A stretch of DNA of 51,731 nt from Ferrovibrio sp. (GTDB taxonomy: Bacteria; Pseudomonadota; Alphaproteobacteria; Ferrovibrionales; Ferrovibrionaceae): the NCBI RefSeq assembly GCF_002796975.1, contig NZ_PEKV01000013.1, positions 13,577 through 65,307 of the forward strand, given 5' to 3'. Under the pieces are notes generated by a model that was given only the letters and a program-made list of their open reading frames with translations, did no database searches and was not told the origin of the DNA. The position numbers and the translations under genes were made by a program. Position 1 is the stretch's first letter. Each line of letters opens with the position of its first letter. Of the stretch, positions 1-16,787 are shown piece by piece.

Positions 1-369
1 GGCCAGCTGACGATACAGGAAGGCATCGTCGAAATTGATCGCCGCCGCATCGGCCTGTTCGTTGGCGTAATAGACCTTGTCGATTCGCGCCCAGTAGGTG
101 GCTGACAGGCACATCGGGCAGGGTTCGCAGCTGGTATAGAGCACGCAGCCTTTCAGATCGAAACGCGCCAGCCGCGTGCAGGCGTCGCGGATCGCCATCA
201 CCTCGGCATGCGCGGTCGGATCGTTGGTCGAGGTCACCCTGTTCCAGCCCTCGCCCACCACCTTGCCGTCCCGCACGATCACCGCACCGAAGGGCCCGCC
301 GGCATTGGCGCTCATATGGATGCGGCTCAGCGCAATCGCCTGCCGCATGAAAGTGTCGTGACCGGACAT
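1..369 (-). CDS. guaD: guanine deaminase (nucleoside/cytidine deaminase superfamily), 3' end outside window
   Basis: Zn-dependent deaminase expected to convert guanine to xanthine in the cytoplasm. The first 123 residues are present; the C-terminus lies beyond the window start. The zinc and catalytic signature is complete: T-A-H-A-E near residue 57 (zinc His and proton-shuttling Glu) and S-C-E-P-C-P-M-C near residue 86 (two zinc Cys). The N-terminus MSGHDTFMRQAIALS and the G-G-P-F-G-A-V-I segment are typical of bacterial GuaD and also of TadA-like enzymes. I prefer guanine deaminase because the gene follows uraD and uraH with a 14-bp gap, so it looks like the last gene of a purine-catabolic operon. 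A generic nucleoside deaminase is the alternative. Confidence 0.8.
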   Translation of the reverse strand, partial: MSGHDTFMRQAIALSRIHMSANAGGPFGAVIVRDGKVVGEGWNRVTSTNDPTAHAEVMAIRDACTRLARFDLKGCVLYTSCEPCPMCLSATYWARIDKVYYANEQADAAAINFDDAFLYRQLA

Positions 370-2611: not shown

Positions 2612-2747
2612 TCATGGCCGGGCTTGACCCGGCCATCCACGTCTAATTGCTTTTCAGTCAGCCGAACAGCCGAAATCTTGTTCTGCATATCACGCCAGTG
2701 AAGGCGTGGATGGCCGGCCAAGAAGCGTTTTCTGGGCCCGGCCATGA
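2612..2747. repeat. composite palindromic intergenic element with GTCATGGCCGGG ends
   Basis: The gap between two minus-strand genes is filled by nested inverted repeats. ATGGCCGGG (2614-2622) pairs with CCCGGCCAT (2628-2636), and ATGGCCGG (2710-2717) pairs with CCGGCCAT (2738-2745). The outer ends GTCATGGCCGGG and CCCGGCCATGAC are also inverted with respect to each other, as are the inner GGCCATCCACG and CGTGGATGGCC. The same core recurs at 12718-12750, 13068-13100 and 16109-16137. It looks like a MITE-like or REP-like unit; it could also end transcription in either direction. Confidence 0.75.
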
Positions 2748-2765
2748 CACTTTTGTGGTTGATCT

Positions 2766-4034
2766 TTAAAGAATCAAAATGGCGCGGAAATCGTTGACGT
2801 TGGTCAGGGTCGGGCCGGTCACCACCAGGCTGCCGGCGGCCTGGAAGAAGCTGTAGCCGTCGTTATTGGCCAGGCAGGCCTTCACGTCGATGCCCTTCAT
2901 CGCGGCGCGGCCGATGCTGTCGGGCGCAAGCCAGGCGCCGGCATTGTCCTCGCTGCCATCGATGCCGTCGGTATCGGCGGCCAGCGCGTAAATACCTTCC
3001 GCGCCATCGAGCGCGACCGCCAATGCCGTGAGGAATTCCCCATTGCGCCCGCCGCGGCCCTTGCCGCGCAGGGTCACCGTCGTTTCGCCGCCCGACAGCA
3101 GTACGCAGGGCGCTTTCGCCGGCTGGCCATGACGGCGCACCTGCCGGGCGATGCCGGCCATCACCATCGCCACGTCGCGCGCCTCGCCCTCGATGGCATC
3201 GCCGAGGATCAGCGGCGTGAGACCGGCGTCGCGCGCCACTTTCGCTGCGGCCTCCAAAGCCATCTGCGGCGTGGCGATCATTTTCATGGTCGTATTGGCG
3301 AAAGCCTTGTCGCCGGGCTTCGGCGACTCATCTTTCGCGGCGGCCAGATGCTTCTTCACATTGGCCGGCAGGTCGATGCCGTATTTCTCGATCACCGCCA
3401 TTGCATCCGCGTAAGTCGTCGGATCTGGCACCGTCGGTCCGGACGCAATGACAGCGGGATCGTCGCCCGGCACGTCCGAGATCAGCAGCGAGACCAGCGG
3501 CGCCGGCGCGGCAGCGGCCGCCAGACGCCCGCCCTTGATGGCGGAGAGATGTTTGCGCAGGCAGTTCATCTCCGCGATATTCGCGCCGCAGGACAGCAGC
3601 GCGCGGTTCACCGCCTGCTTGTCGGCCAGCGTCAGGCCGTCGGCGGGCAGCGACAGCAGCGCCGAGCCGCCGCCCGAGATCAGGCAGAGCACCAGATCGT
3701 CAGGCCCCAGGCCCTGCACCTTCTGCAGGATCAGCGCTGCGGCCTTTTCGCCAGCGGAATCCGGCACCGGATGCGAGGCTTCCACCACCTGGATGCGGTC
3801 GCAGGGCACGTCATGGCCGTAGCGCGTCACCACCAGGCCTTCGAGCGGGGCATCCGCCGGCCAGGCCAGTTCGACGGCGCGCGCCATGCTGGCGGCGGCC
3901 TTGCCGGCGCCGACCACCACCGTGCGCCCCTTAGGGACTGGCGGCAGATGCGGCGCGACGCAATGGGCCGGATCGGCGGCGTCGCGCGCGGCCGTGAACA
4001 TCGCCTGCAGCAGGGCAACCGGATCGCCAGTCAT
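2766..4034 (-). CDS. glycerate 2-kinase (MOFRL family; also annotated TtuD/hydroxypyruvate reductase)
   Basis: Phosphorylates glycerate to 2-phosphoglycerate, feeding glyoxylate-derived carbon into lower glycolysis. The protein is 422 aa, the normal length. The N-terminal DUF4147 domain shows V-V-V-G-A-G-K-A-A near residue 40 and L-I-S-G-G-G-S-A near residue 118; the C-terminal MOFRL domain shows L-S-G-G-E-T-T-V-T and G-R-N-G-E-F. The historical name hydroxypyruvate reductase has been given to this family, but members tested are mostly glycerate 2-kinases. It is 13 bp downstream of the AGE epimerase gene and probably co-transcribed with it. Next to the allantoin genes, the simplest inferred role is using glycerate made from ureidoglycolate-derived glyoxylate. 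Confidence 0.88.
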   Translation of the reverse strand: MTGDPVALLQAMFTAARDAADPAHCVAPHLPPVPKGRTVVVGAGKAAASMARAVELAWPADAPLEGLVVTRYGHDVPCDRIQVVEASHPVPDSAGEKAAALILQKVQGLGPDDLVLCLISGGGSALLSLPADGLTLADKQAVNRALLSCGANIAEMNCLRKHLSAIKGGRLAAAAAPAPLVSLLISDVPGDDPAVIASGPTVPDPTTYADAMAVIEKYGIDLPANVKKHLAAAKDESPKPGDKAFANTTMKMIATPQMALEAAAKVARDAGLTPLILGDAIEGEARDVAMVMAGIARQVRRHGQPAKAPCVLLSGGETTVTLRGKGRGGRNGEFLTALAVALDGAEGIYALAADTDGIDGSEDNAGAWLAPDSIGRAAMKGIDVKACLANNDGYSFFQAAGSLVVTGPTLTNVNDFRAILIL

Positions 4035-4047
4035 AGTTTCACCCCTG

Positions 4048-5271
4048 TCATGACGTCACCTTTATTCCATAGGCTTCCGCCACTTTGAGCGCCGCGGTGG
4101 CGATGTGATAGGGCGTGGTGGCCGGCAGGTAGTCACTGTCGGGGGAGAGATCGCGGCGCAGGAATTCGCGCCAGCCGCCGCCCGGCGTCAGATAATGCTG
4201 CGCCAGGAAAGCAATGCGGCGGTCCAGCGCCGCATAGGCCGCCGGCTCCGCCATGGCGATGGCGCGCATCGCCTGCAGCTTGACGCATTCGGTCATCGGC
4301 CAGATCCGCTTGCGGTCGCTGACCACCCGGCTTTCGGTATCCAGCTGGTCATAGATGCCGCCATGCTGTGGATCGACGCCATGCATATCGGCCCAGGCCA
4401 GCAGCGGCATGGCAATCTGGCGATACTGCGTCTCGCCACTCGCCGCTGCATAATCCAGCAGCAGGCCGGCCCATTCGTAGGAATGACCGGGCTCGACAAT
4501 GCGGCCATTTTCCCCGTCCGGTCGGCCGGCGGCGTCGAAATGCTCCAGCACCCGGGTGCCGTCATCGGCGCGCAGCCGCTGCATGAACAGCAGCACGATA
4601 TCGCCGGCATCGCGCAGCACGCCCTCCTGCGATATGGCGGAATCGCGCGTGGCAGCATGCAGCGCCAGCAGCGCCTCCAGCAGATGCATATGCGGATTCT
4701 GCTCCAGCGCCATGTCGCGTTCGCGCCAGTCGCGACTGGCAGATTGCGCGTACCAACCCTGCGGCAGCAGCAGGTGCTGCTTCATCGCCACCAGTGTGCG
4801 CTGCGACCAGTCCAGCGCGGCGCTCTTGCCGAAGATCGCGCCATATTCGGCCAGCGCGAAGATCGCAAACGCGTGCCCGTAGGCATCCTTGCGCGGATCG
4901 GCCGGCGCCTGTGCATCCGCGCCGGTCTTCAGGCTGAAGAACCAGCCGTGATGCTGGTGGTCCCAGAACCGGCCGGTGAGATCGGCATAAAGTGCATGGG
5001 CGCGCGCGGCGTACTTTTCATTGCCGGTGATGCGCCAGGCCTGTGAAAAGAAGAACAGCTGCCGCGCCACCGCCATGCTGCGGCGGTAGCCCACCAGCAC
5101 CGGCGCCAGATCGGCGGCCTGCAGCCGTTCGATATTGTGGCTGCCGGCGGCATCCCAGCCGTGGTCGAGCCAGAGCCCCGCCATGTCGACGAAGACATGA
5201 CGGACGAAGCGCTGCGCGGTGCTGCGCTGCGGCTCGCTGAACGGTGGCAGGACGGACGACGACTTGGTCAC
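4048..5271 (-). CDS. AGE-family (N-acylglucosamine 2-epimerase-like) sugar epimerase/isomerase
   Basis: A 407-aa (alpha/alpha)6-barrel protein of the family that contains N-acylglucosamine 2-epimerase, mannose isomerase and cellobiose epimerase. Conserved catalytic-site segments are visible: Q-N-P-H-M-H-L-L-E-A about residue 210 and E-P-G-H-S-Y-E-W about residue 260, both carrying the family's functional His. The specific sugar cannot be told. The open frame reaches ATG codons at 5358 and 5373, but those extra residues do not look like the family. The GTG at 5271 has GAAGG 4 nt upstream and gives the normal family length, so I use it; the start remains uncertain. It is divergent from the allantoate amidohydrolase gene and 13 bp upstream of glycerate kinase. 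Confidence 0.83.
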   Translation of the reverse strand: MTKSSSVLPPFSEPQRSTAQRFVRHVFVDMAGLWLDHGWDAAGSHNIERLQAADLAPVLVGYRRSMAVARQLFFFSQAWRITGNEKYAARAHALYADLTGRFWDHQHHGWFFSLKTGADAQAPADPRKDAYGHAFAIFALAEYGAIFGKSAALDWSQRTLVAMKQHLLLPQGWYAQSASRDWRERDMALEQNPHMHLLEALLALHAATRDSAISQEGVLRDAGDIVLLFMQRLRADDGTRVLEHFDAAGRPDGENGRIVEPGHSYEWAGLLLDYAAASGETQYRQIAMPLLAWADMHGVDPQHGGIYDQLDTESRVVSDRKRIWPMTECVKLQAMRAIAMAEPAAYAALDRRIAFLAQHYLTPGGGWREFLRRDLSPDSDYLPATTPYHIATAALKVAEAYGIKVTS

Positions 5272-6705: not shown

Positions 6706-7941
6706 ATGACCATCGACAAGGCCGTCGTCACGGCGATCCACGATTTCGTCACCGCCGAGCAGGGCAACATGGCCGGCATGCTGGCCGAACTGGTGAAGGT
6801 GCCGTCCGACAATCCGCCGGGCGACTGCGCGCCGCATGCCAAACGCGCCGCCCAGCTGCTGGAAAGCCTCGGCTTCACCGTCGAGCAGCATCCGGTGCCG
6901 GCCGATCTGGTGCAGGCCAACGGCATGATCAGTTGCACGAATCTGATTGTGCGCAAAAAATTCGACGACGGACCCGTGGTGGCGATGAATGCCCATGGCG
7001 ACGTGGTGCCGCCCGGCGAAGGCTGGAGCGTCGATCCTTTCGCCGCCGTGGTGAAGGATGGCGTGATGTATGGCCGCGGCGTGGCGGTATCGAAATCCGA
7101 TTTCGTCACCTACGCCTATGCCCTGCTCGCGCTGCAGAAACTCGACAAGCCGATCAAAGGCAGCATCGAACTGCACCTGACCTATGACGAGGAGGTCGGC
7201 GGCGGCATCGGCCCGGAATGGATTCTCAAGACCGGACTCTCCAAGCCCGATTACGCTTTCTCGGCCGGCTTCTCCTATGCGGTGACGACAGCGCATAACG
7301 GCTGCCTGCATCTGGAAGTGACCGTCAACGGGCTGTCGGCGCATGCCGCGCGGCCCGACACCGGCCATGACGCGCTGGAAGCCGCCACCAAGGTGCTGAC
7401 CGCGCTCTATGCCTATCGCGACACGCTGAGCGGCACATGCTCGAAGGTGGAAGGCATCACCACGCCGTCGCTGGTCGTCGGCCTGATCAAGGGCGGCATC
7501 AACACCAATGTGGTGCCGGACCGCGTGTCGCTGCGGCTGGACCGCCGCATGATCCCGGAAGAAAATCCGGAGCAGGTCGAAGCGGGCCTGCGCGACCTGA
7601 TCGCCAAGACCGTTGCCGGCCTGCCCGGCATCTCCGTACAGGTCAGGCAGGTGCTGCTGGCGCGGCCGTTCGGCGGCGTGCCCGGCGTGGAAAAGCTGAT
7701 CGAGATGCTGACGCGCAACGCCACCGAGGTGATGGGCAAGCCCGTGGGAACAGAAGGCATCCCGCTTTACACCGATGCGCGGCATTACTCGGCCGCCGGC
7801 GTGAAGACGGTGCTCTACGGTGCCGGGCCGCGCAACCTGCTGGAAGCCAACGGCCATCGCGCCGACGAGAAGCTGGTGCTCAGCGACCTTTATAAAGCAA
7901 CGGAAGTCGTCGCCCGCACGCTGTACGAACTGCTGGGCTGA
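6706..7941 (+). CDS. M20-family peptidase/deacylase homologue with altered metal-binding residues
   Basis: A 411-aa protein with ArgE/DapE/CPG2-like architecture: catalytic domain, dimerisation lid (about residues 205-315) and C-terminal catalytic segment. Retained are the first metal motif N-A-H-G-D-V-V-P (about residue 94), the catalytic E-E in Y-D-E-E-V-G-G (about 162), and a late His in E-A-N-G-H-R-A-D-E (about 386). Where the family normally has G-R-G-A-x-D-M-K with the bridging Asp, this reads G-R-G-V-A-V-S-K, and the usual G-E-P-T ligand segment reads A-G-F-S-Y. Two of five metal ligands therefore seem replaced. The gene lies between allantoate amidohydrolase and allantoinase (2 bp before puuE), so a role on a ureide or related amide is inferred. 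The substrate is unknown. Confidence 0.78.
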   Translation: MTIDKAVVTAIHDFVTAEQGNMAGMLAELVKVPSDNPPGDCAPHAKRAAQLLESLGFTVEQHPVPADLVQANGMISCTNLIVRKKFDDGPVVAMNAHGDVVPPGEGWSVDPFAAVVKDGVMYGRGVAVSKSDFVTYAYALLALQKLDKPIKGSIELHLTYDEEVGGGIGPEWILKTGLSKPDYAFSAGFSYAVTTAHNGCLHLEVTVNGLSAHAARPDTGHDALEAATKVLTALYAYRDTLSGTCSKVEGITTPSLVVGLIKGGINTNVVPDRVSLRLDRRMIPEENPEQVEAGLRDLIAKTVAGLPGISVQVRQVLLARPFGGVPGVEKLIEMLTRNATEVMGKPVGTEGIPLYTDARHYSAAGVKTVLYGAGPRNLLEANGHRADEKLVLSDLYKATEVVARTLYELLG

Positions 7942-7943
7942 GC

Positions 7944-8909
7944 ATGGCGAAAAAGAAGGCTGCAAAAAAGATCGATATTGTCGCGGCGGCTCTCGGCAAA
8001 AAGCCCTATCCGCGCGACCTGAAGGGCTATGGCCCGAATGCGCCTGATCCGAAATGGCCGGGCGGCGCCAAAGTCGCGGTCAGCTTCGTGCTGAATTACG
8101 AGGAAGGCGGCGAGCGCAGCATCCTGCATGGCGACCGGACGTCGGAAGCCTTCCTGCATGAAGTGCCCGGCGGTGTTCCGCGCGAGAAGATGCGCGACGA
8201 GCAGGTGGAATCGGTCTACGACTACGGCAGCCGCGCCGGCCTGTGGCGCATCCTGCGTCTGTTCGCCGAACGTGGCATCCCCTTCACCTCCTGGGCCGTC
8301 GGCATGGCAGTGGCGCGCTATCCCGAAGCGGCCGCTGCGATGCACGAGCAGGGCCACGAAGTCGCGAGCCACGGCTGGCGCTGGATCGATTACAGCAAGA
8401 TACCGCTGGCGACCGAACGCGCCCATATGAAGCTGGCCATCGAAGCGATCCGCCAAGCGACCGGCGTGGCACCGCAGGGCTGGTATACCGGGCGGCTGTC
8501 GTCCAACACACTCAAACTGGTCGCCGAAGAGAAGAGCCTGGTCTACGCGTCGGATGCTTACGACGACGACCTGCCGTATTGGACGACGGTAGGGAAAAAG
8601 CCCCTGCTGATGCTGCCCTATACCTTCGACAACAACGACATGAAATTCGGCCAGCTGCACGGTTTTGCCACCGGCGCGGATTTCGAGAGCCATGTGAAGG
8701 ATGCCTTCGATGTGCTCTATCGCGAGGGCAACGACGGCGCGCCCAAGATGATGACGATTGCGCTGCATTGCCGCCTGATCGGCCGGCCGGGTCGCGCGGC
8801 GGCATTGGCGCGGCTGATGGATTACATCCAGAAACACGACAAGGTCTGGATCGCGCGGCGTATCGACATTGCCGAGCACTGGAAGACGGTGCATCCGTTT
8901 AAGGGGTGA
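7944..8909 (+). CDS. puuE: polysaccharide-deacetylase-fold allantoinase, PuuE type
   Basis: A 321-aa NodB-fold protein of the cofactor-independent PuuE group, which opens allantoin to allantoate. Family features visible are the start of the fold W-P-G-G-A-K-V-A-V-S-F-V-L-N-Y-E-E-G-G-E, the segment V-P-G-G-V-P, the second-strand G-H-E-V-A-S-H-G-W-R-W near residue 140, and Y-T-G-R near residue 180. The N-terminal 40 residues are basic (K-K-K-A-A-K-K) and longer than usual. The start is 2 bp after the M20 stop codon, so the three plus-strand genes form an operon. Together with uraH and uraD it reconstructs the path from hydroxyisourate to allantoate. A chitin/peptidoglycan deacetylase is a much weaker alternative. 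Confidence 0.85.
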   Translation: MAKKKAAKKIDIVAAALGKKPYPRDLKGYGPNAPDPKWPGGAKVAVSFVLNYEEGGERSILHGDRTSEAFLHEVPGGVPREKMRDEQVESVYDYGSRAGLWRILRLFAERGIPFTSWAVGMAVARYPEAAAAMHEQGHEVASHGWRWIDYSKIPLATERAHMKLAIEAIRQATGVAPQGWYTGRLSSNTLKLVAEEKSLVYASDAYDDDLPYWTTVGKKPLLMLPYTFDNNDMKFGQLHGFATGADFESHVKDAFDVLYREGNDGAPKMMTIALHCRLIGRPGRAAALARLMDYIQKHDKVWIARRIDIAEHWKTVHPFKG

Positions 8910-8910
8910 T

Positions 8911-8979
8911 CGTCGTCCCCGCGAAAGCGGGGACCCAGTCTGACGGTTGTTCTGGGTTCCCGCTTTCGCGGGAACGACG
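8911..8979. repeat. composite inverted repeat with CCCGCGAAAGCGGG cores, probable terminator
   Basis: Two short palindromes, CCCCGCGAAAGCGGGG and TTCCCGCTTTCGCGGGAA, are placed in opposite orientation with CCCAG/CTGGG and CGTCGT/ACGACG as matching arms, so the whole 69 bp can also fold as one long hairpin. It separates the puuE and tetR genes, which converge here. A degenerate relative occurs at about 17630-17657. Repeats of this kind are dispersed intergenically in many alphaproteobacteria. Confidence 0.7.
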
Positions 8980-8986
8980 TCGAGGA

Positions 8987-9625
8987 TTACCTCTTCCCCA
9001 CCATGCCATCCCACGCCGCCATTGCCGCTTCTACGGTGGCCAGCAGCTGCTTCTTCGTCGCGCCGTCACGCGCCTGGATCGACATGCCCTGCATAAGCGT
9101 CGTGTAAAACGTCGCCATCGCCACGGCGTCGGCGCCCTTCGGTACATCGCCCGCCGTGATCCCGCGCCGAATCCGCGCCGCCAGCATCTCGACCGCACTG
9201 CGGCGCGTCTTGGTCATCAGCCCGCGCACGCTCTTGTTCTCCGGCGCACCGACAATGGCGGCCAGCACCACCATGCAGCCCGGCGGCTTCTGCGGATTCA
9301 CATAATCGCCGGCATGGAAACGCAGCATCGCCGCAAAACTTTCCTTCGCCGTTCTGCCCTGTGCCAGCAGCCGCTGCGGTTCGGCGCCCTCGGTGACCTG
9401 ATAGAGATCGAGCGCTTCCCCGAACAGCGCCTCCTTGCAGTCGAAGGCTGCGTAAAGACTCGGCGCATTGATGCCCATCGCCCCGGTCAGGTCGCTTAAG
9501 GAGGTCGCCTCATAGCCGCGTTGCCAGAACACCTCCATCGCGGCCCTGAGCGCCGCGGCGCGATCGAAGCTGCGCGGCCGGCCTTTTGCCGGCTTCTGAG
9601 CTTTTGTGACCCTGCGCACGGCCAT
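8987..9625 (-). CDS. TetR/AcrR-family transcriptional regulator
   Basis: A 212-aa one-component repressor. The N-terminal helix-turn-helix is clear: G-R-P-R-S-F-D at about residue 16, A-L-x-A-A-M-E-V-F-W-Q-R-G-Y-E-A-T-S-L-S-D-L about residues 27-48, then the recognition region G-I-N-A-P-S-L-Y-A-A-F about 54-64. The C-terminal two thirds is the variable ligand and dimer domain. The open frame continues to 9715, but the ATG at 9625 has AGGAA 8 nt upstream and is used. It is divergent from an SDR gene with 128 bp between start codons, and two matching 16-bp sites in that gap suggest it represses both itself and the SDR gene. The ligand is unknown. Confidence 0.88.
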   Translation of the reverse strand: MAVRRVTKAQKPAKGRPRSFDRAAALRAAMEVFWQRGYEATSLSDLTGAMGINAPSLYAAFDCKEALFGEALDLYQVTEGAEPQRLLAQGRTAKESFAAMLRFHAGDYVNPQKPPGCMVVLAAIVGAPENKSVRGLMTKTRRSAVEMLAARIRRGITAGDVPKGADAVAMATFYTTLMQGMSIQARDGATKKQLLATVEAAMAAWDGMVGKR

Positions 9626-12619: not shown

Positions 12620-12717
12620 TTAGTCCGTCATGGCCGGCCTTGTGCAGCAACATAACCGTCACCCTCGGCTTGCCCCGAGGGTCCATCCCGTACGATCTCC
12701 ATAGGCATTACCCCCTT

Positions 12718-12750
12718 CCGTCATGGCCGGCCTTGTGCCGGCCATCCATC
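12718..12750. repeat. left 33-bp inverted repeat flanking the GIY-YIG gene
   Basis: This 33-bp sequence is internally palindromic (ATGGCCGGC 12723-12731 with GCCGGCCAT 12737-12745). It matches the reverse complement of 13068-13100 at 31 of 33 positions. The pair encloses the GIY-YIG gene, with 18 bp from this copy to the ATG. Confidence 0.8.
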
Positions 12751-12768
12751 CCGTGCCAGCGTCAGTGT

Positions 12769-13056
12769 ATGGCGGGCGGGTGGCTGTACATCATGACCAA
12801 CGGACCAAACGGCACGCTCTATGTCGGCGTGACGGCCGATCTCAAACGGCGCGTGCATGAACATCGCACGGGCGACGCCGGTGGCTTCACCAAACGCTAT
12901 CGGCTGACGCAGCTGGTCTACGCCGAAGCGCACGACACCATTCAGTCCGCCATCCAGCGCGAGACATCGATCAAGCGCTGGCCGCGCGCCTGGAAGCTGC
13001 GCACCATTCACGCCCTGAACCCAGACTGGCGCGATCTCTACGACGATCTGACCTGA
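12769..13056 (+). CDS. small single-domain GIY-YIG nuclease family protein
   Basis: A 95-aa protein consisting only of a GIY-YIG domain. The motif variant is L-Y-I-M-T-N (GIY position) and L-Y-V-G-V-T (YIG position), followed by the Arg of D-L-K-R-R-V-H-E-H, a conserved Tyr (Y-R-L-T-Q-L-V-Y), the metal-binding Glu in I-Q-R-E-T-S-I-K, and the tail N-P-x-W-R-D-L. This is the UPF0213/YhbQ-like group of stand-alone domains whose cellular role is poorly known. An in-frame extension to 12640 runs through the repeat and is rejected. No good ribosome binding site precedes the ATG. The gene is enclosed by 33-bp inverted repeats, which suggests a small mobile unit. Confidence 0.85.
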   Translation: MAGGWLYIMTNGPNGTLYVGVTADLKRRVHEHRTGDAGGFTKRYRLTQLVYAEAHDTIQSAIQRETSIKRWPRAWKLRTIHALNPDWRDLYDDLT

Positions 13057-13067
13057 CCCATTCGTCT

Positions 13068-13100
13068 GATGGATGGCCGGGACAAGCCCGGCCATGACGG
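13068..13100. repeat. right 33-bp inverted repeat flanking the GIY-YIG gene
   Basis: Reverse-complement partner of 12718-12750 with 2 mismatches. Its internal palindrome is ATGGCCGGG (13073-13081) with CCCGGCCAT (13087-13095). It begins 12 bp after the GIY-YIG stop codon. Confidence 0.8.
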
Positions 13101-14377: not shown

Positions 14378-14680
14378 ATGTCCAGACAGACACCCCCGCC
14401 GATTCCGCAACCGAGCCAGTTCACGCTGGAGCCCGGCGATCACGGCCGCGGCACCGGGCCGCTGCATACCGAACCGCTGGTGAAGAATTCGCCGCAGCGG
14501 GAACGCGTCGGCCCCGGCACCTATGGCAACGACCAGTTCGCCGCCGAGCATCACGACGATTTCGTGCAGGACCGCGAACTGCCCGAGGGTTTATGCGATC
14601 CGCAGGGTGGCCCACTGCGGCCGACCAGGAAGCCGAAGGAAGCGCGCTACGGCCGCCATGGCGGTCAGGGCAAGGGCTGA
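14378..14680 (+). CDS. hypothetical protein, 100 aa, hydrophilic
   Basis: I do not recognise this family. The product is hydrophilic, rich in Pro, Gly, Arg, His and Glu, with no membrane segment or signal peptide: a Pro-rich start (T-P-P-P-I-P-Q-P), an acidic middle (A-A-E-H-H-D-D-F-V-Q-D-R-E-L-P-E) and a basic Gly-rich end. It is probably largely disordered. An excellent ribosome binding site (AAGGAG at 14365-14370, 7 nt before the ATG) and codon use like its neighbours support it as a real gene. It is the last GC-rich gene before the AT-richer islet. Confidence 0.65.
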   Translation: MSRQTPPPIPQPSQFTLEPGDHGRGTGPLHTEPLVKNSPQRERVGPGTYGNDQFAAEHHDDFVQDRELPEGLCDPQGGPLRPTRKPKEARYGRHGGQGKG

Positions 14681-15107
14681 TCCGGACTACGTCCTTACAG
14701 CATCCTTATGAGTAAACTCATATCATAGCTCTGATGCGATATTCATATAATATACTGAAATATAATAATTATTTTTAGAACATCCTTGAAAATCCCTTTA
14801 CCGTGAGAGCTTTTATGAGGAATGCGGGCTCTTCCTCGTTATTTTATGCGCGCCTACGCGCTCAACACGAAAACGACTTGACCGTTATGAGGAATCGGGT
14901 TATCAGCAGAATAGAGCCGAAAATCAAACGGCTCTGGCGGGAGGACACCCGCTCAGAGCCGCCGATTGTAAGTCTTGGTGCTAAGAACGACCCTCAGTCA
15001 CCAAGGTGGAAGCAGGGCCAAGAGAAGGCCACTACTCTCACGTACGCACGTAGAGTATGGCACACTCCCCGCGTCTTTTCAAGGGTTTAGCGGATTAGGA
15101 GGTCACC
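14681..15107. other. non-coding AT-richer region with inverted repeats, upstream part of the islet
   Basis: No convincing gene is present in these 427 bases. The first part (14700-14790) is strongly AT-rich, with runs such as ATATTCATATAATATACTG, and contains the inverted repeat ATGAGT/ACTCAT (14708-14721). Promoter activity there is likely, but I cannot name a single best hexamer pair. The second part (14817-15060) is a chain of hairpins described separately. The base composition contrasts sharply with both flanks. Confidence 0.6.
14817..15060 (+). ncRNA. candidate structured RNA or long structured 5' leader
   Basis: Reading the plus strand as RNA gives successive stems. GAGGAA/TTCCTC is at 14817-14837. 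AGAGCCG (14913-14919) can pair with CGGCTCT (14929-14935). The same CGGCTCT can instead pair with AGAGCCG (14955-14961) in a longer stem that adds GCGGG/CCCGC around the loop AGGACA. A 13-bp bulged hairpin at 15029-15060 has CCA, TACTCT and ACGT arms around the loop ACGC. The two mutually exclusive partners for CGGCTCT are the kind of arrangement seen in riboswitches and attenuators. I recognise no known RNA family. The strand is assigned from the downstream plus-strand genes. Confidence 0.35.
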
Positions 15108-15194
15108 ATGCCCCCCAAGAAAAAGCGCAAAAAGCCGGGAACTCCGGATCGTCGCTATGGGATCGGTACGCGTCGCTACTATTTACGTCTCTGA
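15108..15194 (+). CDS. 28-aa Lys/Arg-rich small ORF, possible leader peptide
   Basis: The ORF encodes MPPKKKRKKPGTPDRRYGIG followed by TRRYYLRL. It is preceded by TTAGGAGGTCACC, one of the best Shine-Dalgarno sequences in the window, 4 nt before the ATG. Of 28 residues, 12 are Lys or Arg. It lies after the hairpin chain and 105 bp before the next gene, with a perfect 11-bp hairpin between. It might be a leader peptide controlling the 263-aa gene or a small nucleic-acid-binding protein. Nothing in it is a family I recognise. Confidence 0.5.
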   Translation: MPPKKKRKKPGTPDRRYGIGTRRYYLRL

Positions 15195-15260
15195 CGTGTA
15201 GCACCAAAACGATCTGCGTTGAGACCGGGACGCCGGCTTGGCGCTTCTTTAAACGCCTTA

Positions 15261-15285
15261 AGCGCGGGGTTGAGAACCCCGCGCT
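15261..15285 (+). promoter_or_regulatory. perfect 11-bp hairpin before the 263-aa gene, attenuator-like
   Basis: AGCGCGGGGTT (15261-15271) and AACCCCGCGCT (15275-15285) are fully complementary around the loop GAG. There is no T-tract after it, so it is not a standard intrinsic terminator; the ribosome binding site TTGGGGG follows within 4 nt. The upstream GCGCTT (15241-15246) can pair with AAGCGC (15260-15265) and would open the base of this hairpin. Confidence 0.5.
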
Positions 15286-15299
15286 CCTTGGGGGATAAA

Positions 15300-16091
15300 A
15301 TGCCGATAGAAAGAAAGACCAAACCTGCCGCCGCCGAGCCAAAAGCCGGACGTGAAGTGTCCGCAATCGGCTTCCCATACCTCGACCTCGATAACGCAAT
15401 TTCGGTGGCTCGAGCAATGATAGAGAACGGTGGCGTTCCCTGCACTCGAGACCAACTGGCCGGTGCAATGAAGCAAGTTCCCAGCAGCGGCAATTTCGTT
15501 ATGAAACTCGCCGCAGCCCGACTTTTCGGGCTGATCGAAGTCAATCAGGGAAAAAACCATCTGACTCAGAATGGCTTCGCCATTGTTGATCCAGAACGTC
15601 AAAAAGCGGCTAGAGCCGAGGCATTTCTAACCGTGCCTCTTTATCGCCGTGTTTACGAGGAGTTCAGAGGCAAGCAGTTACCCCCTCGTCCATTGGGATT
15701 GGAACAAGCATTCGTTAATTTTGGGGTTCCGGCTAAGCAAAAAGATAAAGCTCGATGGACCTTTGAGAAATCAGCAAGACAAGCTGGCTTTTTTAATGCT
15801 GCTGAAGATCGACTGGTTGAACCGATCTTGGCATCGACTGGTTCTGAAAAATCATCTGCCGCCGCCGAACCAAATAAGAAAAGCAATATTTCTGAGAGTT
15901 CCACTACTTCGGGGGCGAATCTTGACCCGCTCATTGAGGGCTTGTTGAGACGCTTGCCTGATCCCGGTTCGGATTGGGATTACAACAAGCGGGTCCAATG
16001 GCTGCGGACATTGATTGCCAATTTGGATGTCGTATATCCCTCTGTTGATGACAGTAAATACATTGCTGTATCAGTGGAAGTTGACGAGTAA
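15300..16091 (+). CDS. unassigned 263-aa protein, probable winged-helix-type N-terminal domain
   Basis: I do not recognise the family with certainty. Residues about 20-125 look like a helical, probably DNA-binding module: F-P-Y-L-D-L-D-N-A-I-S-V-A-R-A-M, then D-Q-L-A-G-A-M-K-Q-V-P-S-S-G-N-F, K-L-A-A-A-R-L-F-G-L-I-E, L-T-Q-N-G-F-A-I-V-D-P and A-R-A-E-A-F-L-T-V-P-L-Y. This pattern resembles conserved hypothetical proteins and DUF5343-like sequences. A Ser/Asn-rich linker (about 185-215) leads to a short C-terminal segment with L-L-R-R-L-P-D-P and V-Q-W-L-R-T-L. Base composition is lower in GC than the neighbours, suggesting transfer. TTGGGGG precedes the ATG. The long structured leader and 28-aa ORF upstream suggest post-transcriptional control. 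Confidence 0.75.
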   Translation: MPIERKTKPAAAEPKAGREVSAIGFPYLDLDNAISVARAMIENGGVPCTRDQLAGAMKQVPSSGNFVMKLAAARLFGLIEVNQGKNHLTQNGFAIVDPERQKAARAEAFLTVPLYRRVYEEFRGKQLPPRPLGLEQAFVNFGVPAKQKDKARWTFEKSARQAGFFNAAEDRLVEPILASTGSEKSSAAAEPNKKSNISESSTTSGANLDPLIEGLLRRLPDPGSDWDYNKRVQWLRTLIANLDVVYPSVDDSKYIAVSVEVDE

Positions 16092-16108
16092 GAGACTTAG
16101 CTCCTGCC

Positions 16109-16137
16109 GTCATGGCCGGGACAAGCCCGGCCATGAC
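16109..16137. repeat. GTCATGGCCGGG palindrome copy, probable bidirectional terminator
   Basis: GTCATGGCCGGG, then ACAAG, then CCCGGCCATGAC: a perfect 12-bp dyad with a 5-nt spacer, followed by TTGATTTTT on the plus strand. It lies between the 263-aa gene and the convergent GST gene. It belongs to the same family as 2612-2747, 12718-12750 and 13068-13100, and marks the right edge of the AT-richer islet. Confidence 0.75.
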
Positions 16138-16145
16138 ATTGATTT

Positions 16146-16787
16146 TTAAACGTCAGTTACGGCGCGTGTGTCGGACATGCTTTTGCGCGCCGCCATCCGC
16201 CCCCACCAGGCTGAGAGCTTCGGATGCGCGGCCATCATGCTGCGGCCTTCGTCCGTCATCGCCAGGCAGGCCAGCATCGGCGCCGCGTGAAGATCGGCGA
16301 GGCTGAGCGCGTCGCCGCAGAGATAGTCCTGATCGTTCAGGATACCGGCCAGCACCGCGTGACAGGCCGCCGCCTTCGGCAGGCTGGCCGCGATCTTCGC
16401 TTCATCCGCCGTCTCGCCGCGCTTCGGCTTCGACACACGCTCGACGAAAATGCCCCAGACGCCGCGCGGGTAGAGATAGCTGTCGCAGACCGAGATCGCC
16501 TGGGTCATGCGGGCGCGCTGCTGTATATCGCGCGGCTGCAGGGCCGGACCGGGAAAGGCCTCGTCGACATAGCGCAGGATCGCGCCGGTCTCGAACAGGG
16601 CGAAGCCGTCATGCTCGAAGGCCGGCACCTTGCCGAAGGGCTGCCGCACCAGATGTTCGGCCGGCGGGCCGCCCGGCGCAAAGACATGCACCTCTTCGAA
16701 ACGATGCGCGACGCCCTTCTCGATCAGCGCCAGACGGCAGCTGCGCGTGTAGACGCTATAGGCGGCGCCGAAAAGCATAACCGCCAT
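16146..16787 (-). CDS. glutathione S-transferase family protein
   Basis: A 213-aa cytosolic GST-type protein. The N-terminal thioredoxin-like domain has the start M-L-F-G-A-A-Y-S-V-Y-T-R-S-C-R, the cis-Pro motif G-K-V-P-A-F near residue 52 and the glutathione-binding L-F-E-T-G-A-I-L-R-Y near residue 64 (E-T/S motif). The C-terminal helical domain carries Y-L-C-G-D-A-L-S-L-A-D-L-H, the N-capping and hydrophobic staple region. Substrate is not predictable from sequence. The start codon is 1 bp from the LysE stop codon, so the gene is probably co-transcribed with and downstream of lysE. Confidence 0.87.
   Translation of the reverse strand: MAVMLFGAAYSVYTRSCRLALIEKGVAHRFEEVHVFAPGGPPAEHLVRQPFGKVPAFEHDGFALFETGAILRYVDEAFPGPALQPRDIQQRARMTQAISVCDSYLYPRGVWGIFVERVSKPKRGETADEAKIAASLPKAAACHAVLAGILNDQDYLCGDALSLADLHAAPMLACLAMTDEGRSMMAAHPKLSAWWGRMAARKSMSDTRAVTDV

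Follow-up and report, generated by a model that had tools for sequence, protein, structure and literature searches.

A structured RNA, a small ORF, a GC-rich hairpin and a gene encoding a predicted winged-helix protein follow one another in identical order in four genomes of distantly related bacteria: in the window (by which we mean the whole analysed stretch of 51,731 nucleotides from Ferrovibrio sp.) and at loci L002, L003 and L044. Comparison of these sequences supports the view that RNA, small ORF and gene form a co-inherited unit, and we are highly confident that the cassette is real, though in few genomes. The window carries it on an islet (Table 1) whose GC content at about 14,680-16,100 is 39-57%, as against 65-70% in the flanks (200-bp windows). 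A first-pass annotation, made from the letters alone, had pointed to this change of composition and to an ordered layout of RNA, tiny ORF with ribosome-binding site, 11-bp hairpin and a 263-aa gene without known match. Each of these parts was recovered, and the recurrence of the layout at three unrelated loci places it beyond chance. As for its interpretation, co-inheritance is borne out by the four syntenic loci, the RNA covariation and the conservation of the peptide, while control of the last gene by RNA and ORF is still something that we infer.

Table 1. Features of the islet, in positions of the window
Feature	Position	Strand	Basis or remark
AT-rich left part of islet	14681-14877		composition, sequence
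Direct repeat TTATGAGGAATGCGGG / TTATGAGGAATCGGG	about 14814 and 14887		possible regulator site, role putative
Candidate promoter TTGACC-(16/17)-TTATCA/TATCAG	14878-14906	+	four-locus sequence comparison; putative
Structured RNA, about 180 nt	14908-15086	+	fold, model match to L002, covariation
P1 hairpin	14929-14961	+	part of structured RNA
P2 hairpin	14974-15005	+	part of structured RNA
P4 enclosing P3	P4 15008-15017/15067-15078; P3 15028-15038/15050-15061	+	covariation
CAAGGG, immediately 3' of P4	15080-15085	+	direct sequence
Shine-Dalgarno AGGAGG of small ORF	15097-15102	+	sequence
28-codon ORF, MPPKKKRKKPGTPDRRYGIGTRRYYLRL and stop	15108-15194	+	last 15 residues conserved in four loci
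Perfect 11-bp GC-rich hairpin, GAG loop	15261-15285	+	between small ORF and gene
263-aa protein	15300-16091	+	AlphaFold2 model, structural comparison, alignment of 12 homologues
Regions of 263-aa protein	residues about 24-181; linker; residues about 210-245		predicted tandem winged-helix; flexible linker; short C-terminal helical motif

A protein scan of one genome per species (84,980 species) yielded two loci, L002 and L003, and a similar RNA and small ORF were seen at both when the upstream DNA was read. The fourth full cassette, L044, comes from the order of the L003 genome, L003 itself being a low-coverage metagenome contig. In all four loci, the stop codon of the small ORF lies 78-105 nt from the gene; complete loci number only four, and the E-values given here are rough. 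More distant protein homologues were added by genome searches. The co-occurrence search suggested by the first-pass annotation thus united RNA, small ORF and gene at four loci, and homologues lacking the upstream region, which it had named as evidence against its reading, were also found: 9 of 13 protein homologues carry neither RNA nor peptide upstream, so that the protein can exist without them. As the tree of the 13 homologues is poorly resolved, one and two gains of the RNA are indistinguishable. Neither plasmid nor phage records contained a relative of the 263-aa protein, and in plasmid records the RNA region and the L003 element described below were likewise without relatives; the sequences of solved structures gave none. 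Three winged-helix relatives were detected in viral contigs (L011, L012 and L013), none of them matched by the RNA model. The small number of complete loci and the frequent occurrence of the protein without RNA and peptide might indicate that the parts are chance neighbours in foreign DNA, but this is strongly disfavoured by identical order in four genomes, covariation and peptide conservation, and we consider it extremely improbable.

As for the RNA, the first-pass annotation had described a 244-nt chain of hairpins. Its folding was upheld, the segment 14800-15100 reaching -111.6 kcal/mol (z -4.1), which none of 100 shuffled sequences equalled; its length was not, the part conserved across species being the narrower 14908-15086. 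An RNA model (R1) built from the window sequence alone matched L002 with E 7e-9 in 134 kb and 3e-7 in the L002 genome. The best-supported core is 15008-15086. For this 3' domain, the four RNAs were aligned with MAFFT, structure being ignored, and the covariation anticipated by the first-pass annotation was present in P3/P4 of this sequence-only alignment. P4 closed on P3 in all four independent minimum-energy folds, and the P3 columns 21-24/52-55 were likewise present in 4/4. When one named structure was laid over the alignment, 88.8% of cells were paired compared with 39-53% when the partner was slid, a comparison in which the structure has an advantage, chiefly in cells paired, since it was picked from folds of the same four sequences. 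Two-sided changes occurred in 9 of 20 pairs versus 1-4 in the slid controls, and none of 500 shuffles reached either 88.8% paired or nine two-sided pairs. Judged from these aligned sequences, the RNA core is shown to be under base-pair selection.

Outside the core, P2 differs in sequence in each locus while retaining 6-7 pairs, as could be read directly (CTTGGTG/CACCAAG, CTGGTG/CACCAG, CCGGCA/TGCCGG and CGACGT/ACGTCG). Its loop might pair with CAAGGG (ACCCU/AGGGU) as a pseudoknot; this pairing is possible in L003 (7 bp) and L044 and comprises only 4 bp in L002, which is suggestive only. The RNA also contains a conserved internal loop, AAGAGAAG / GCAC. No Rfam 15 family was assigned to the RNA when the whole window was searched and the four RNA loci were searched at E<=1, the latter giving two weak matches, one of 20.6 bits (gathering score 97) and one of 15.7 bits (gathering score 53.5). 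A covariance model of the four RNAs, which recovers them at 1e-15 to 1e-19 by construction, found one weak further site, at L030 (E 0.002 in 256 kb). Matches of the RNA model in genomes G097, G952 and G868 were rejected as chance, lying within or between ordinary genes where neither a small ORF nor a winged-helix gene could be recognised, and so was the outcome of scanning viral contigs for an RNA motif pattern, which matched one gene of one virus group only. A 95-aa ORF over the RNA (14803-15090) was dismissed as coding, having only a weak Pfam match (0.004, below cut-off) in a region that is RNA by covariation. It could be argued that the RNA itself is the product, trans-acting or dual-function, with the small ORF and the winged-helix gene as its partners, because the strength of the covariation and the conserved internal loop exceed the needs of a simple leader. 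We regard this as quite unlikely, however: the RNA always abuts the ribosome-binding site of the small ORF, and P4 of L044 has no T run, so that no terminator is shared. For the same lack of a T run, P4 was dropped as an intrinsic terminator.

Upstream of the RNA, the candidate promoter contains in its spacer the sequence GAATCG, present at the same position in L002, L003 and L044; this promoter was absent from the list of a generic promoter scan. Repeated TTATGAGGAAT sites within the DNA at 14681-14910 could be regulator sites. At the other end, one copy (16109-16137) of a palindromic repeat, TGGCCGGGACAAGCCCGGCCATGAC, closes the islet as a terminator-like site. Three further copies are located at 13074-13098, 2611-2635 and 12720-12744, the four having 0-2 mismatches, and none would be expected in the window by chance. 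A small ORF at 12640-13056, judged by eye, looks like a member of the GIY-YIG nuclease family. No tRNA or tmRNA was detected in a search of the whole window.

The small ORFs of the four loci encode arginine-rich peptides of 26-28 residues (MPPKKKRKKPGTPDRRYGIGTRRYYLRL, MPRSFWRRPRIRDKRFRAVKPHIRLRL, MCKHRYPRPLRNGKRFGVSPRRYHLRL and MDKRWTAPVLRGKRYVIPRKLYRLRL) which, aligned without gaps from the stop codon, have in common the C-terminal motif [DG][KR]R[YF]x[IVA]xx[RPK]x[YI]xLRL, or in condensed form xKR[YF]x[IV]xxRxYxLRL. Over its final 15 residues the alignment scores 172, whereas shuffled sequences average -67 (p<5e-5). The invariant LRL is encoded by TTA-CGT-CTC, CTC-CGC-CTG, CTT-CGC-CTC and TTA-AGG-CTC; these codons differ synonymously, indicating that selection acts on the peptide. 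At the level of sequence comparison, the small ORF is thereby shown to be selected for its protein product, with conservation anchored at the stop codon. The 28-aa peptide of the window matched nothing in Pfam, PADLOC or PHROGs, an absence which at such a length says little.

The end of the peptide resembles that of apidaecin, which arrests ribosomes at stop codons and in which the penultimate Arg and last Leu, contacting the release factor and the P-site tRNA, as well as Pro11-Arg12, are critical (PMC11347161). All four cassette peptides have the penultimate Arg and the C-terminal Leu, and an aromatic residue at -12, as apidaecin Tyr7; the ending of L003 is PRRYHLRL versus PRPPHPRL in apidaecin. 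An equivalent of Pro11-Arg12 (-8, -7) is found only in L003, the window having Thr-Arg, L002 Lys-Pro and L044 Arg-Lys. Unlike apidaecin and other type II proline-rich peptides, the cassette peptides come from bacterial genes and have more Arg/Lys and little Pro, and the likeness, if real, is likely convergent.

A GC-rich hairpin is found at the equivalent place in 4/4 loci; it is not a canonical terminator. The ribosome-binding site of the gene is predicted to be largely paired (mean probability of being unpaired 0.16-0.52 across the four loci). The reading that we prefer, quite possible though somewhat short of probable, has two steps: the RNA would regulate how a peptide that arrests ribosomes at its stop codon is translated, and this peptide would regulate the winged-helix gene. 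A single transcript from about 14912 would cover all three parts. P4 and the CAAGGG end, upstream of the ribosome-binding site of the small ORF, would make the RNA a leader that gates translation of this ORF. The peptide of 26-28 residues would sit wholly inside the ribosome exit tunnel and might, by means of its -RL end, slow or arrest termination at the stop codon of its own ORF; the arrested ribosome would then alter the fate of the downstream hairpin and of the occluded ribosome-binding site. The outcome would be control of a DNA-binding winged-helix protein acting in defence or in control of mobile elements. Several traits argue for a peptide of the arrest type: spacing that is constant relative to the stop codon, a length matching the exit tunnel, the strength of the ribosome-binding site and the hairpin that follows. 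Leader control as a whole is favoured by the four-locus layout, covariation, the peptide motif, the paired ribosome-binding site of the gene and the apidaecin precedent with its common -RL end, and further by the L003 transposon and by the defence site and Septu neighbour (see below). Against it count the absence of the leader in most homologues, the fact that complete loci are only four, the non-canonical hairpin and the result of masking: when a ribosome footprint was masked at the stop codon of the small ORF, the ribosome-binding site of the gene was clearly freed in 0/4 loci and pairing altered little, so that folding displayed no simple switch.

The 263-aa protein belongs to no family in Pfam, NCBIfam, PHROGs or PADLOC 2.0.0, in agreement with the first-pass annotation, and Pfam gave only weak matches for 12 homologues. 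An AlphaFold2 model based on these 12 homologues is confident for winged helices at residues 24-170 (block-mean pLDDT 81-95), the linker being disordered, and has structural matches of MarR/DtxR/FokI type; the protein is predicted to bind DNA. Its closest structural neighbours are the recognition domains of Nt.BspD6I and FokI and an uncharacterised Magnetospirillum protein (PDB 3bhw), with Z 8.0-8.5, rmsd 3.4-4.2 over 144-155 residues and identity 11-16%, values which may reflect only a common arrangement. The likeness extends over about 150 aligned residues, and the nuclease domain of FokI and Nt.BspD6I is absent from the 263-aa protein. Some distant winged-helix relatives bear C-terminal extensions: a TIR domain by Pfam in L005, a deoxyribosyltransferase-like domain below Pfam's cut-off in L028, and in L017 an extension matching only a PADLOC TIR effector model. 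Three otherwise different proteins (L009, L020 and L021) end in a motif like the C-terminal one of the 263-aa protein, PLIxxLLxxLPxxxxxWxxxxRxxWLxxxxxxxxxxY.

The cassette can ride in a transposon of the IS1595 family, as is shown in sequence by L003. There, positions 2643-5122 are a complete element carrying the whole cassette, with perfect 25-bp inverted repeats GGTAATAATATACTTGACTCAGTAA at 2643-2667 and 5098-5122, an 8-bp target duplication AAAACAAA on both sides and an IS1595-type (DDE_Tnp_IS1595) transposase with one in-frame stop. Homologues of the protein also adjoin IS1595 transposases in L013, L030 and L037 (a remnant) and IS1 transposases in L011 and L035. In L035, where homologue and IS1-type transposase lie at 7352-9442, ARAGORN called a tRNA-Ser (anticodon act) between them at 8458-8533. 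From such neighbourhoods it could be proposed that the winged-helix protein is a transposon accessory, helping or limiting IS1595/IS1 transposition and tuned by RNA and peptide. This seems very unlikely to us, as several homologues reside in phage or core-gene contexts without a transposase, no transposase is near L002 or L044 or among the ORFs surrounding the window islet, and no inverted repeat or target duplication encloses that islet; a search for inverted repeats with target duplication gave nothing convincing at the window, L002, L030, L032-L035 or L037.

In two congeners, the equivalent of window 14680-16150 is flanked by a GST gene on one side and, on the other, by a small-protein gene next to BenE; congener G005 has there a dCTPase defence gene (L041, 4143-5780; PADLOC E 8e-163) and congener G001 a PIN_10 gene with a partner (L042); the site is a defence hotspot whose cargo differs between genomes. 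In L002, the cassette comes after a Septu-like pair, consisting of a PtuA match and a match to the partner model of a candidate system. Structured 5' leaders hold translation low in many toxin mRNAs, and the peptide might be the effector: a basic, ribosome-acting peptide kept low by the leader, with the winged-helix protein as regulator or sensor of a toxin-antitoxin-like or anti-phage system. The defence cargo of the congeners and the pair adjoining L002 fit this alternative, as do the constant position of the RNA beside the small ORF, the resemblance of the peptide end to a termination inhibitor and, in more distant proteins, the fusion of the winged-helix domain to a TIR or a deoxyribosyltransferase-like domain. 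A basic 38-aa ORF (MRPRVHVRAYERHRHGALEHVRAHTRRWPGQLEFAFTF) follows the weak RNA match of L030, 3' of the winged-helix gene, match and ORF lying at 7028-7237 on the minus strand. That arrangement is unsuited to a leader role and, if the match is real, would mean that RNA and peptide can form a unit apart from the gene, a point that speaks for the peptide as effector; the L030 peptide, however, has no LRL end. Moreover, no antisense RNA was seen and placement in a defence island is indirect support, and we hold the effector role to be somewhat unlikely. Unlikely too is a joint reading, a mobile module in which the RNA gates an apidaecin-like ribosome-trapping peptide and the winged-helix protein serves as sensor, with an anti-phage or element-stabilising function.

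Compared with known systems, the cassette under the preferred leader reading resembles leader-peptide attenuation of the TnaC, SpeFL or ErmBL type, in which a short ORF with a strong ribosome-binding site and a hairpin precede a gene and selection on the peptide is strongest at its C-terminal end; ORF with ribosome-binding site, conserved peptide end and hairpin before the gene are all present here. It differs in that the leader ORF is preceded by a covarying RNA of about 180 nt and followed by a gene for a predicted DNA-binding protein, that the cassette is mobile and that arrest is putative. With toxin-antitoxin and small anti-phage systems it shares a small basic peptide, a structured 5' leader, a regulator gene, a defence-gene site and a patchy mobile distribution, but it has no PADLOC match, known toxin fold or identified antitoxin. 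L003 fits IS1595-family transposons with passenger genes in its transposase, repeats and duplication, whereas at the copy in the window transposase and inverted repeats are both missing.

What is new is the joining of a folded RNA and a conserved micropeptide, both without a match in the RNA and protein families searched, to each other and to a predicted DNA-binding protein, all within a compact cassette that passes between bacteria. Should the peptide indeed arrest ribosomes at termination, bacteria would have, in their own genes, an equivalent of the mechanism of an insect antibiotic. Should it control the winged-helix gene, the cassette would represent a leader-peptide switch in a mobile, defence-associated setting.
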